From Spirochaetales bacterium (lineage in GTDB: Bacteria > Spirochaetota > Spirochaetia > Treponematales > UBA12059), in the NCBI GenBank assembly GCA_016926955.1, contig JAFGNN010000068.1, positions 1-35,769 of the forward strand: a DNA stretch of 35,769 bases, written 5' to 3'. This document shows, piece by piece, positions 10,833 through 16,723 of this stretch. Each line of letters starts with the position of its first letter. Positions within the stretch are counted from its first letter, which is position 1. A model generated the notes under the pieces. The model ran no database searches and was not told the origin of the DNA. It saw only the letters and a list, made by a program, of their open reading frames with translations. Both the position numbers and the translations under genes were made by a program.

Positions 10833-13800
10833 TCAGGCCTCCGCGTCCGGGGAGGCTTCTCCCTCCGCGGCGGGCTCGTCAACGGAGGCCTTGGCGTCCT
10901 CGGCTTCTTTCGCGGCCTTGGCTTCCTTGGCTTCCTTGGCTTCTTTGGCTTCCTTGGCCTTTGCGGCTTTCTCGGCCTTCGCCTTCTCGGCCTTCTCGGC
11001 CTTGTCGACGTCGCCGAGCTTGCGGGTCACGGCCACCTGCTCGAAAATCTCGAGCACGTCGCCGACCTTGAGGTCGTTCCAGCCGTCGATGCCGATGCCG
11101 CACTCGTAGCCCGCGGCGACTTCCTTCGCGTCGTCCTTGAAGCGCTTGAGCGAGCCGAGTTTGCCCTGATGCACCTCGATGCCTTCGCGTATGACCCGGA
11201 CGCCGGCGGCGCGCTTGACGACGCCCTCGAGGACGTAGCAACCGGCGATGACGCCGATCTTCGGTACCTTGAAGAGCTCGCGGACCTCGACCTGGCCGAT
11301 GTCCTGTTCCTTGAATTCGGGCGCCAGCATCCCTTCCATGGCCGTCTGGATCTCCTCGACGGCGCGGTAGATGATGTTGTACTTCCGGATGTCGACCTTC
11401 TCCTGGTCGGCAAGGAGCTTGGCCTTCGGGGTCGGGCGCACGTTGAAGCCGATGATGATGGCATCCGAGGCGGAGGCCAGCATGATGTCGTCCTCGTTGA
11501 TCGCGCCGGCCGCCGCGCGGATGGCGACGAGCCGGACTTCCCGGGTGGAGAGCTTCTCGAGCGAGCTCTTGAGCGCCTCGACGGATCCGGTGACGTCGCC
11601 CTTGATGACGACCTTGAGCTCCTGGACGTTGCCTTCGTGGATGGTGTCGTAGAGGTTGTCGAGCGTGACCTTCTTGAGGGTCTTGGCGACCTCGGAGCGC
11701 TTGAGTTCCTGGCGCTTCCCCGCGATCTGGCGGGCGAACTTCTCGTCCTCGACCGCCTCGAAGGGGTCGCCGGCGTTGGGCATGCCCTCGAAGCCGATGA
11801 CCTCGACCGGCTGCGAAGGATTGGCCACCTCGACCTTTTCGCCGCGTTCGTCGAACATCGCGCGGACCTTGCCCGGGAAGACTCCGGCCACGAAGCAGTC
11901 GCCGACGCGGAGCGAGCCGCGCTCGACGATGATGGTGGAGACGATGCCCCGCCCGTGGTCGATCTTGGCCTCTATGACCTTGCCCTCGGCGCGGGTGTCG
12001 TAGTTCGCGGTCAGCTGGAGCAGCTCGGCCTGCAGCAGGATGGCGTCGAGCAGCTCGTCGATACCCTTCTTCTGGAGGGCCGAGATCTGGCAGAAGATGG
12101 TCTCGCCGCCCCAGGCCTCGGGGGTCAGGCCCCGCTCGGCGAGCTGGGTCATGACGCGGTCCGGGTTGGCCTCGGGAAGGTCGATCTTGTTGATGGCGAC
12201 GATGATCGGAACCTTGGCCGCCTTCGCGTGGTCCAGGGCCTCGAGGGTCTGGGGCATCACGCCGTCGTTTGCCGCGACGACCAGGACGACGATGTCCGTC
12301 ACCTGCGAGCCGCGGGCGCGCATCTTGGTGAAGGCTTCGTGGCCCGGGGTGTCGAGGAAGGTGATGCGGCCCTTGGGCGTGCTCACCATATAGGCGCCGA
12401 TATGCTGGGTTATGCCGCCGAATTCTCGGCTCACCACGTCCGTCTTGCGGATGGCGTCGAGCAGCTTGGTCTTTCCGTGGTCGACGTGGCCCATGACCGT
12501 CACGATGGGCGGACGGTGGACGAGGCTCTCGGGCGAGTCGGTTTCCTTCTCGATGACGGTCTCGTCGTAGAGGCTCACCACCTTGACCTCGCAGTTGTAT
12601 TCACCCGCGAGGATGGTGGCTGTATCCGCGTCGATCTGCTGGTTGATGGTGGCCATCACGCCGAGGCTCATGAGCTTTCCGATGAGCTCGCTCGGCTTGA
12701 TGTTCATCTTCCTGGCCAGGTCGGATACGGAGACGGTCTCCATGATGTCGACGCTAGAGGGAATGGCGTTGAGGTTCGCTCCGGATTTCTTCTTGAACTG
12801 GAGCGCCTTCTCCATGTTCTCGTCGCGCTTGGCGTAGGAACCTTTCTTTCCCTTGGCTTGCCGCTTTCCGGCGGGGCGCGACGGACCGGGAGGAGGACCG
12901 CCCGCGCCGGGCCGGCCGCCGAAGCCGCCGGGACGCCCTGGGCCGCCGGGGCCGCCGGGTCGAGGCCCGTAACCCGGTCTTCCGCCGGGTCCGCCCGGCC
13001 TGCCGGGTCCGCCCGAGTAGCCGCCGGGACGGCCGGGACCACCTTGGTATCCGCCGGGACGGCCGGGGCCGCCCGGACCGCCGGAGTAGCCGCCGGGACG
13101 GCCCTGGTAGCCGCCCTGGCCGCCGGGAGCGCCGCCGGGACCGCCGGAATAACCGCCGGGACGGCCCTGATAACCGGAACCGCCCTGATAGCCGCCGGGA
13201 CGGCCCTGGTAGCCGCCCTGGCCGCCCGAAGAGGGAGCGCCGGGACCGCCGGAGTAGCCGCCGGGACGACCCTGGTAGCCGCCCTGGCCGCCGGGCCCAC
13301 CCTGATAGCCGCCGGGACGGCCCTGGTAGCCGCCCTGGCCGCCGGGAGCGCCGGGGCCTCCCTGATAGCCGCCCGGCCGGCCCTGGTAGCCGCCGGATCC
13401 GGAGCGATCATAACCGCCGACCCGGCCCTGGACCGAGTTGGGACGCTGGGTGTCATAACCGCCGACCCGGCCCTGGACCGAGTTGGGGCGCTGGGTATCG
13501 TAGCCGCCGACGCGGCCCTGGACCGAGGCGGGACGTTGCGTATCCGAGGACGCCGGCCGACCCTGCGGCGGAACCGGGCGCTTCGGCGCGTCGGCTGAAG
13601 GCGCGGCCGCGGAAGGCGCGCTGTCCGCAGGCGCTTCGGTCGGGGCGGCGGCGGCAGTCTCGTGACGCGGAGCGCGGGCGGGCTCCGCCTTCGCCTCCTC
13701 GCCGTCGTGATGCGCGACCACGCGGGCCTGGGGCTTCCTTACGACGACCTTCTTCTTGACGACCACGACCTTCCGCTTCTCCGCGGAGTCCTGGTCCTCG

Positions 13801-13898
13801 GCCTGAGGGGCGGGCGCGGGCGCGGGCGCGGCCGGAGGAGCCTTGGGCTGCTTTATGAGATGGGCCTTGGCTTTCTGGTTCTCGTTGCTGTCAGACAT
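10833..13898 (-). CDS. infB: Translation initiation factor IF-2 with repeat-rich N-terminus
   Basis: GTPase that delivers initiator fMet-tRNA to the 30S subunit, 1021 residues. The first 115 residues are Ala/Pro/Lys-rich. Then come three 15-residue repeats ([15 protein letters not shown] type, about 118-163), about 170 residues of Tyr/Gly/Arg repeats (YQGRPGGY appears six times) and a Lys-rich linker. The IF-2 N-domain starts near 376 ([20 protein letters not shown]). The G domain starts near 466: GHVDHGKT, the [10 protein letters not shown] switch, [12 protein letters not shown] and SALQKKG. Domains II, III ([20 protein letters not shown]) and IV follow. The last 60 residues are an unusual Lys/Glu/Ala tail beyond the normal end. 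The core is standard; both ends are elaborated. Confidence 0.98.
12898..13410 (-). repeat. Tyr/Gly/Arg-rich coding repeat block in infB
   Basis: In-frame degenerate repeats encode a low-complexity segment built from [18 protein letters not shown] and GGPGRPGG units. Six exact YQGRPGGY copies are present, and the block drifts to GRPGGPGG towards its end. Copies differ at synonymous positions (ggataccaa versus ggctatcag-type choices), which argues for selection on protein rather than recent slippage alone. Confidence 0.9.
13411..13545 (-). repeat. Three tandem 45-bp coding repeats in infB
   Basis: Three adjacent 45-bp units begin at 13411, 13456 and 13501 and encode TQRP(N/A)[10 protein letters not shown] three times. 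The first two copies are nearly identical at the DNA level and the third has drifted, which suggests recent duplication within the gene. Confidence 0.92.
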
Positions 13899-13920: not shown

Positions 13921-15363
13921 TCAGGCCTCCTGGTCGTCCTCGTACTCGAAACTGAGCTCGACGCCGCAGCTCGGGCATTTCGTCATTTCGGTCGTGATGC
14001 GGGCGCCGCAATCCGGGCACTCGTACTCTTCTTCCCGCGCGGCTTCTTCGCCCGTCGCCGCCGTATCATCCGTAACAATTTCCACGTTCTCGTCGATGAG
14101 CGCGCGCAGCGTGGCGAGCTCATCCTCAGGCAGTCCCTCGATGGAGGCGAGTTTCGCCTCGTCCATGGCGAGGAAGTCCTCTATGAACTCGATTCCGGCG
14201 GCCGCGAGCGCGGCGACAGCGGCTTCGGGCGCGTCCGGCAACTCCGAGAGCCTGGAGATTTCCTCTTCCTCGATTTCGCCGAAGAGGGCGGAGACCGCCT
14301 CTTTCGCGCCGCTCGTGAGGTCCATCTGCTGGAACTGTTCTTCGGTCTTGACGTCGATGTTCCAGTCGCAGAGCCGGTTCGCCAGACGGACATTGAGGCC
14401 TTGCTTTCCGATGGCCACGGAGAGCTGGCCCTCCGCGACCACGGCCAGCGCCAGGCGACGGCCTTCGTCGAGGACGTGGACGTCGAGCACCTCGGCCGGC
14501 GAGAGCGCGTTGCGGATGAAGCGCTTCGGGTCGATCTCGTACTTGAGCACGTCGATCTTCTCGCCTTCGAGCTCGCGGATGATGGACTGGATGCGGATGC
14601 CCTTAAGGCCCACGCAGGCGCCGACCGGATCGACGTCCTCGCGCTTTGAGTAGACGGAGATCTTGGTCCGGTAGCCCGGCTCGCGGACGATCTTGAAGAC
14701 GTCCACCGTGCCGTCGTAGATCTCCGGCACCTCGAGCTCGAGGATCTTCTTGACGAACTCTGCGTGCGAGCGGGAAAGCACGATCTGAGGACCGGTCTTG
14801 GTCTTGTTGACCTCGACGATATAGGCCTTGATGCGGTCGTTCGGGTGGTAGGTCTCCCGCGGCGACTGGTACTTGCGGGGAAGCACGCCTTCGACGCGCC
14901 CGAGATCCACGTAGATGTTTCCGTTCCGCTCTCGCTGGTAGTACCCGATGATGATCTCGCCGACCTTCGAGTGGTATTCGGCGTAGAGCGTATCTCGGGA
15001 AATCTCGCGGAGGTTCTGGCGGGTGGTCTGCTTCGCGAGCATGACCTCCTGCAGGTCGAACTCTCGCGGATCGATGGGGAGCTCGAGTATGTCCCCGACC
15101 TCCGCCTCGTCGGACCACTGCTTGGCCTCGGAGAGTTCGATCTCCAGAACCGGATCGTCGAGCTCCTCGACAATGGTCTTGCGCGCGAGGATCTCGACGC
15201 CCTCATAGTCGTCCTTGAAGCGGACGACCGCGTTCTCCGAGGTGCCGAAGCGCTTCTTGTAGGCGGCCATGAGGGACTCTTCGACCGTCTTGAGCACGAG
15301 CTCCTCGGAGATTCCCTTCTCGTATATCAGCTGACGGATAGCCTCTGCCATCTCTGACGACAT
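13921..15363 (-). CDS. nusA: Transcription elongation/termination factor NusA with C-terminal zinc ribbon
   Basis: RNA-polymerase-binding factor of 480 residues that modulates pausing, intrinsic termination and antitermination. An N-terminal polymerase-binding domain (LVLKTVEESLMAAYKKRFG) is followed by an S1 domain (IYVDLGRVEGVLPRKY), then KH1 (GACVGLKGIRIQSIIREL) and KH2 (VAIGKQGLNVRLANRLC). After these come an acidic linker and one helix-hairpin-helix-like segment (FIEDFLAMDEAKLASIEGL). The last 32 residues hold Cys449-x2-Cys452 and Cys463-x2-Cys466, a zinc-ribbon pattern not usual in NusA. Start at 15363, seven bases after the rimP stop; GGAGGGG lies about a dozen bases upstream. Second gene of the rimP-nusA-infB cluster. 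Confidence 0.96.
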   Translation of the reverse strand: MSSEMAEAIRQLIYEKGISEELVLKTVEESLMAAYKKRFGTSENAVVRFKDDYEGVEILARKTIVEELDDPVLEIELSEAKQWSDEAEVGDILELPIDPREFDLQEVMLAKQTTRQNLREISRDTLYAEYHSKVGEIIIGYYQRERNGNIYVDLGRVEGVLPRKYQSPRETYHPNDRIKAYIVEVNKTKTGPQIVLSRSHAEFVKKILELEVPEIYDGTVDVFKIVREPGYRTKISVYSKREDVDPVGACVGLKGIRIQSIIRELEGEKIDVLKYEIDPKRFIRNALSPAEVLDVHVLDEGRRLALAVVAEGQLSVAIGKQGLNVRLANRLCDWNIDVKTEEQFQQMDLTSGAKEAVSALFGEIEEEEISRLSELPDAPEAAVAALAAAGIEFIEDFLAMDEAKLASIEGLPEDELATLRALIDENVEIVTDDTAATGEEAAREEEYECPDCGARITTEMTKCPSCGVELSFEYEDDQEA

Positions 15364-15370
15364 GGTTTTC

Positions 15371-15817
15371 TCACCCCTCCCGCGCGCCGTCGAGGCGCGC
15401 CTTGACTATTTCGGAAATCGGCACCGTTTTCTCGCCTTCCCCGGTGGAGAGGGTGACCGTGTCGCCTTCGGCGCCGACTATGACGCAGGGCGTCCATTCT
15501 GTTTCCCCGAGGAAGATCGCCTTGATGCCGCGGCCGGCGAAAGTGGCGTATTCGCGGCCTTCGTGAAGCAGACGCTCGGTTCCGGGGCTCGCCACTTCCA
15601 GGTGGAAATCCTGGAGATCGAGCAGCACCTGGAGCCGCGGCTGGATCAGGCGATGCGCCTTGGCGCACTCGTCGATGCCTGTACCGCCCTTGCGGTAGAC
15701 CGTCGCGCGCACCGAAGCGCCGCCTTTTCGGCGACTGATGAAGAGATCGACGAGCGCAAGGCCCGCGCCCTCGAGAAGCTGTGCCAGTTCCTGGCGTATC
15801 GAATCGGTTTCCGTCAT
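15371..15817 (-). CDS. rimP: Ribosome maturation factor RimP
   Basis: A 148-residue protein for 30S subunit assembly. It shows the RimP pattern: N-terminal alpha/beta domain (GLALVDLFISRRKGGASVRATVYRK), the conserved stretch around DFHLEVASPGTERLL (family S-P-G-x-x-R), and a C-terminal SH3-like domain (TVTLSTGEGEKTVPISEIVKARL). The start at 15817 has AGGAA directly upstream. It is the first gene of the rimP-nusA-infB-rbfA-truB unit, a conserved bacterial order. A terminator-shaped hairpin ends only nine bases before its start codon. Confidence 0.93.
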   Translation of the reverse strand: MTETDSIRQELAQLLEGAGLALVDLFISRRKGGASVRATVYRKGGTGIDECAKAHRLIQPRLQVLLDLQDFHLEVASPGTERLLHEGREYATFAGRGIKAIFLGETEWTPCVIVGAEGDTVTLSTGEGEKTVPISEIVKARLDGAREG

Positions 15818-15825
15818 TTCCTGCC

Positions 15826-15857
15826 AAAAAAAAAGAGCCGCGGGAACGACTCTTTTT
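15826..15857 (-). terminator. Terminator/attenuator in the rimP-nusA-infB leader
   Basis: On the minus strand an 11-bp stem (plus positions 15847-15857 with 15830-15840, one G-U wobble) encloses a 6-base loop. It runs into nine consecutive T (15826-15834). The wobble pair is stable only in the minus-strand transcript, pointing to that direction. The T-run ends eight bases before the rimP ATG, and a strong promoter lies upstream, so the hairpin is inside the operon's own leader. It may also stop transcripts arriving from mutS-comF. Confidence 0.88.
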
Positions 15858-15882
15858 CATTCTCGCTCTGTATGTCGCTTCG

Positions 15883-15911
15883 ATACTACCGGAACGCTCC
15901 GGGGGTGTCAA
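15883..15911 (-). promoter_or_regulatory. Promoter for the rimP-nusA-infB operon
   Basis: On the minus strand a perfect -35 TTGACA (15906-15911) and TAGTAT (15883-15888) are separated by 17 bases. The predicted start of transcription is near 15876, giving a leader of about 60 bases that contains the hairpin at 15826-15857. Confidence 0.8.
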
Positions 15912-15970: not shown

Positions 15971-16723
15971 TCAGTCCGCGGCGAGGGCGAGCGCGTCGAC
16001 CCGCAGGGCTCCGGAGGCCTTCAGGGCGCGGGCGCAGGCCGAGAGCGTGGCGCCGGTGGTCATCACGTCATCCACGAGGAGCACCCGCTCGGGAACCTGG
16101 CCGCGCACGGAGATGGCGTGTTCCAGATTGGTCTGGCGGTCCTCGTGGCCGAGCGTCTTCTGCTGGATTCCCGGCTTCCGTTCAAGGAGGCGCATCGTCC
16201 GGAAGCCCAGACGCCCCAATTCCTCCACGAGCAAGGCGGACTGGTCCCAGCCGCGCTTCCTGAGCGACGCGGGGGAGCAGGGTGCGGCGACCGCCACCGC
16301 GTCCGGGAAGCGCGCGGCCCCTTCAGCGAGGCGCCAGGCGAGGAAAGGAGCAAGGGAACGTCGCCCGGCGAATTTGTAGGCGGCGACCAGAGCCGCGGCG
16401 GGACCGGCGTATCGCCACAGCGGCCACGCCGAGTCGAAGGAGAAATCCGCAGCCCGACAGCGGAGACAGAGCCCGCATTCGGAGAGCAGGGGAATGCCGC
16501 AACGACGGCAACGAGGCGCCGGCGCCGGCGCCAGGCCCGACGCGCATTCCGCGCAAAGCGGCGGATCGTAATCTGGCGCGGGGCGATACCGGGCAAGCGC
16601 TCCGGGGGGAAGATCGCGCGGAGGAGCGAGGCTCGGGCTCAGCGGAGCGCCGCAGAGTACGCAGACACCCGGGAGGAGGAGGGACCGGAGACCTGTCGCG
16701 GCGCGATGAACGGTCTTGACCAT
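15971..16723 (-). CDS. ComF-family phosphoribosyltransferase with zinc-ribbon N-terminus
   Basis: A 250-residue protein of the ComF/GntX group. The N-terminal third holds paired cysteine motifs: CVLCG (21-25), CAEC (57-60), CRRCG (72-76) and CGLCLRC (83-89). These form a double zinc-ribbon arrangement. The C-terminal half is a type I phosphoribosyltransferase fold with the PRPP loop VLLVDDVMTTGAT. In naturally competent bacteria ComF helps bring in or process single-stranded DNA; elsewhere the role is uncertain. It follows mutS on the same strand after 70 bases, which suits a link to DNA metabolism. Start ATG at 16723 with only a weak GGGA upstream. Confidence 0.88.
   Translation of the reverse strand: MVKTVHRAATGLRSLLLPGVCVLCGAPLSPSLAPPRDLPPGALARYRPAPDYDPPLCAECASGLAPAPAPRCRRCGIPLLSECGLCLRCRAADFSFDSAWPLWRYAGPAAALVAAYKFAGRRSLAPFLAWRLAEGAARFPDAVAVAAPCSPASLRKRGWDQSALLVEELGRLGFRTMRLLERKPGIQQKTLGHEDRQTNLEHAISVRGQVPERVLLVDDVMTTGATLSACARALKASGALRVDALALAAD

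Follow-up and report, generated by a model that had tools for sequence, protein, structure and literature searches.

A likely transcription attenuator of the rimP-leader kind ahead of rimP-nusA-infB in the Spirochaetota

The leader of the rimP-nusA operon in a spirochaete of the order Treponematales is, judging from comparative sequence evidence, very probably a rimP-leader-type transcription attenuator, a promoter followed at short distance by an intrinsic terminator that the operon transcript has to cross. We analyzed a stretch of 35,769 nucleotides (the window) from a spirochaete MAG of 3.38 Mb in 94 contigs, together with the leaders of relatives in the same order and throughout the phylum. 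The original prediction of an attenuator at this place is well supported, since the module is conserved phylum-wide, its internal spacing is constrained and a second promoter past the terminator is mostly missing.

Promoter and hairpin in the window

The operon lies on the minus strand and begins with rimP (15371..15817; Pfam RimP_N, 1.5e-12), followed by nusA (13921..15363; NusA_N, 1.5e-28, and KH_5, 3e-27), which encodes the candidate regulator, and infB for IF-2 (10833..13898; IF-2, 1.4e-40, and GTP_EFTU, 2e-37). Next come rbfA and truB, with pnp farther downstream. Records related to the window rimP come from spirochaete MAGs and Rectinema. Upstream, on the same strand, is a comF-like gene (15971..16723; Pribosyltran and DZR_2), whose stop falls 59 nt before the -35 hexamer. 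The NusA of the window ends in an acidic linker and a C-terminal zinc ribbon (CPDC...CPSCGVELSFEYEDD), and this ending is present in all eight same-order relatives with a readable C-terminus (L119 to L125 and L127). A literature text search returned no paper combining NusA, zinc ribbon and spirochet.

On the minus strand, between 15911 and 15817, the leader consists of TTGACA, 17 nt, TAGTAT, ca. 25 nt, AAAAAGAGTCGTTCCCGCGGCTCTTTTTTTTT, GGCAGGAA and the ATG. The -35 hexamer TTGACA occupies 15906..15911 and the -10 hexamer TAGTAT 15883..15888, both also recognizable in nearly all leaders of the order, and transcription is predicted from the promoter position to start about 7 nt past the -10, at 15876. 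The terminator hairpin, AAAAAGAGTCG(T) TCCC (G)CGGCTCTTTTT, spans 15830..15857, with its 5' arm at 15857-15846 and its 3' arm at 15841-15830; it is visible in the sequence, in the RNA fold and in the covariation among relatives. The T9 tract (15826..15834) is partly shared with the base of the stem and ends 8 nt before the rimP ATG (15817). Promoter, 17-nt spacer, hairpin, T run and distance to the start codon are thus all where the original prediction had placed them. Its 11-bp stem with nine T was borne out and can be refined, as a closing U-G adds a twelfth pair, and in the fully closed stem only four of the nine T stay unpaired, the other five being paired with the A-run. The G-U pair it described (T15849/G15838) does form only in the minus-strand transcript and becomes an A-C mismatch in RNA of the opposite strand. 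RNA terminated here would measure ca. 50 nt.

Taken singly, these features are suggestive, not conclusive. The promoter matches 10 of 12 positions, and a scan of 12 kb returned no other promoter-like site; 0.9 would be expected there by chance, so that the promoter is not significant by itself. The 62-nt leader RNA folds at -19.3 kcal/mol (z -3.5), with 1 of 200 shuffles equally good, and a simple terminator scan of the 12 kb did not pick up the hairpin, apparently because five T lie inside the stem. The evidence that sets the module apart from chance is its conservation among the leaders compared.

At the rimP start (15817-15834), the window and most of its family have no well-spaced Shine-Dalgarno sequence, and the T run and hairpin lie inside the expected ribosome footprint. 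The hairpin might therefore also affect rimP translation.

Conservation in the order and the phylum

Comparison of leaders in relatives, which the original prediction had proposed as a check on the hairpin and its T run, bore out both. We compared 39 leaders of this order and of close relatives, and in 37 of them an intrinsic terminator precedes rimP, with a T run of 6 to 9 in every order relative that has the terminator. A promoter of the form TTGA..-17/18-TA...T, with TTGA.. at the same place as in the window, is found in 35 of these 37, and 46 to 65 nt separate its end from the T run. The gap between T run and start codon is 6 to 11 nt in most of the window's family and ca. 24 to 240 nt in most other families. 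The commonest stem is AGAGTCG...CG(A/G)CTCT, and the others (GGAGTCG, GGGC or GGACTCG) are related to it. In the alignment of relatives, the stem is paired in 99.2% of the cells, two pairs have changed on both sides, and the covariation score exceeds all 500 shuffles, a result inflated by the kinship of the sequences. An open frame in the window (ATGAAAAAGAGTCGT...) was rejected as a leader peptide, since frames and starts differ among relatives.

The phylum set comprised 111 leaders, namely the order set and the leaders of a further 72 genomes, in which most genera are represented once or a few times. The terminator scan was positive in 91 of them, against 9 of 555 dinucleotide shuffles (1.6%) and, in the antisense control, 13 of the 111 (12%). 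Of 96 leaders, 58 have a promoter-like site (at least 10 of 12 positions) in the 70 nt preceding the hairpin, compared with 2.1% of shuffles; of the 40 leaders with room between hairpin and ATG, only one has such a site there. The distance from the -10 to the end of the hairpin is constrained (median 54 nt), while that from the hairpin to the start codon varies from 6 to 299 nt. GAGTCG or GAGTGG occurs in 60 of 97 hairpins.

We also built a covariance model of the leader from 26 order leaders. Its single match in the window's genome is the rimP leader site, the only one found as well by a pattern search allowing up to three mismatches, and a multi-copy terminator or regulon was thus rejected. 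Among 247 phylum genomes searched, 42 matched, at least 20 of them just upstream of rimP by coordinate comparison; most of the remaining matches lie near the threshold and are probably ordinary terminators.

Constrained spacing between promoter and terminator, variable spacing between terminator and gene and the rarity of a second promoter point to an attenuator instead of a terminator of comF. That the hairpin merely ends comF, with rimP driven from another promoter, is highly improbable: comF is indeed the adjacent upstream gene in the window and has the same orientation, and one incomplete MAG (L012) keeps the hairpin with no recognizable promoter between comF and hairpin, but nearly all order relatives have a promoter in that interval at a constrained distance, promoters past the hairpin are rarely found, and in the window merely 8 nt separate the T run from the ATG. 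We also consider it very unlikely that the module serves to make a stable small RNA of ca. 50 nt acting in trans, with readthrough incidental. Such a role would agree with a hairpin and promoter-terminator spacing that are kept while the distance to rimP varies; however, the first 25 nt of the leader RNA are poorly conserved between genera, the covariance model places its one genomic match at rimP, and the window has no other recognizable rimP promoter. The attenuated RNA could still have a secondary role.

Some leaders speak against the attenuator. Besides L012, the draft genome L019 keeps the promoter and an upstream U-rich element as in L036 while its terminator hairpin is not detectable, possibly through loss or an assembly variant. 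The module is also absent from three Borrelia-like leaders (L047, L053 and L054) and from L040, a Treponema-like genome of 1.1 Mb, the identity of all four being deduced from genome size.

Effector and possible antitermination

Under the attenuator reading, RNA polymerase would initiate at the TTGACA/TAGTAT promoter just past comF and within ca. 50 nt reach the intrinsic terminator, and the fraction reading through would become rimP-nusA-infB mRNA. By sequence, the promoter stands upstream of the terminator, so the operon transcript has to cross the hairpin; initiation, termination and readthrough themselves we infer. NusA is the likeliest regulator, and by analogy with other bacteria we lean slightly toward it as the effector: more NusA would mean more termination, and hence negative feedback on the operon. 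The feedback loop of the original prediction fits what is described for Bacillus subtilis (Mondal 2016, as cited in PMC12288461) and what was suggested for the rimP-leader (PMC2965389).

Somewhat less probable is an attenuator with another effector (RimP, IF2, a ribosomal protein or NusG), or a terminator of fixed strength that keeps operon expression at a steady low level. The conserved stem sequence, with GAGTSG in the proportion of hairpins given above, suggests a recognized signature and does not single out the binder, and the RNA fold makes the terminator look factor-independent. With a strong hairpin and an unbroken U run, termination could be feasible without NusA, which may therefore not be limiting. 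Against this, the effector published for B. subtilis is NusA, as reported in PMC12288461, and for the rimP-leader in general NusA has been named as the candidate (PMC2965389).

A more elaborate version, which we regard as rather doubtful, is that the Spirochaetota leader is a true termination/antitermination switch, its spirochaete-specific stem read by a NusA that in this order carries a zinc ribbon, and that the window's genus has lost the antiterminator. An upstream U-rich strand (e.g., GAUUCUUUUUA or GGUUUUUCUUA) would pair with UAAGRAGAGUC and sequester the 5' arm of the terminator. Pairing of this kind with the 5' arm is found in L017, L018, L010, L008, L022 and others, with alternative folds of -7 to -12 kcal/mol against ca. 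-13 for the terminator. The leaders of 12 of 25 relatives beat shuffled upstream parts (P < 0.05), although the sequences are related and a combined P value would be too small, and covariation in the relatives' upstream helix did not exceed that of shuffles or column composition. An antiterminator in several relatives is thus plausible, a lead and not a result. For the window's genus it was not supported and was rejected: the alternative of -9.7 kcal/mol in partial transcripts was not better than shuffles (P ~0.4), longer RNA gave P values of 0.12 to 0.19, and the alternative was not kept in L002 or L003.

Relation to known leaders and significance

This kind of leader has already been described, a precedent that the original prediction did not mention. 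When Naville and Gautheret (2010, PMC2965389) presented the rimP-leader, they described it as the most ubiquitous attenuator, and the spirochaete leader shares with it the short length, an intrinsic terminator before rimP-nusA-infB, a conserved stem and the lack of a large riboswitch-like element. Published rimP-leader terminators sit 4 to 130 nt from the start codon. The main text of that paper does not contain the word stem "spirochaet". Its hairpin stem is GGGc...gCCC, a description of most members and not a stated requirement, whereas the window has GAGTCG...CGGCTC and the phylum GAGTCG, GAGTGG, GGGCCG or GGACTCG. Four order relatives (L024, L028, L029 and L030) have GGGC-type stems, between the spirochaete GAGTCG and the published types, and given these the window stem looks like a lineage variant.

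The gammaproteobacterial Rfam family RF01770 (rimP) likewise has a terminator preceding rimP, and in Escherichia coli GGGCTTTAGGCCC-T8 stands 17 nt before the gene. Unlike the window, RF01770 extends over 102 positions and has two terminators in tandem; no match above the gathering score was obtained for the window and no relative reached the cut-off, while the E. coli leader, used as a positive control, matched with 102 bits. No credible match to a known Rfam family was found at gathering or relaxed thresholds, PrrB_RsmZ (19.8 bits against a cut-off of 44) being most likely due to chance.

The nusA gene of B. subtilis is autoregulated through leader termination that NusA stimulates (Mondal 2016, as cited in PMC12288461 and PMC6200986). 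The two systems share the operon, a leader terminator and a proposed negative feedback by NusA, but NusA dependence is demonstrated in B. subtilis, according to these citing papers, and is what we infer for the spirochaete leader.

The spirochaete leader is hence a version of a brake known for this operon in other bacteria. What is new, on the stem sequences compared, is a lineage-specific GAGUSG/CSACUC in place of GGGc/gCCC, together with a plausible antiterminator in several relatives that has no support in the window's genus. The rimP-nusA-infB attenuator is extended to the Spirochaetota, where it has a stem sequence of its own and a compact architecture. That leader terminators recur on the NusA-encoding operon suggests either an ancient origin or repeated evolution of feedback on the termination machinery, and comparison with the divergent stem is a natural way to find what the regulator recognizes.
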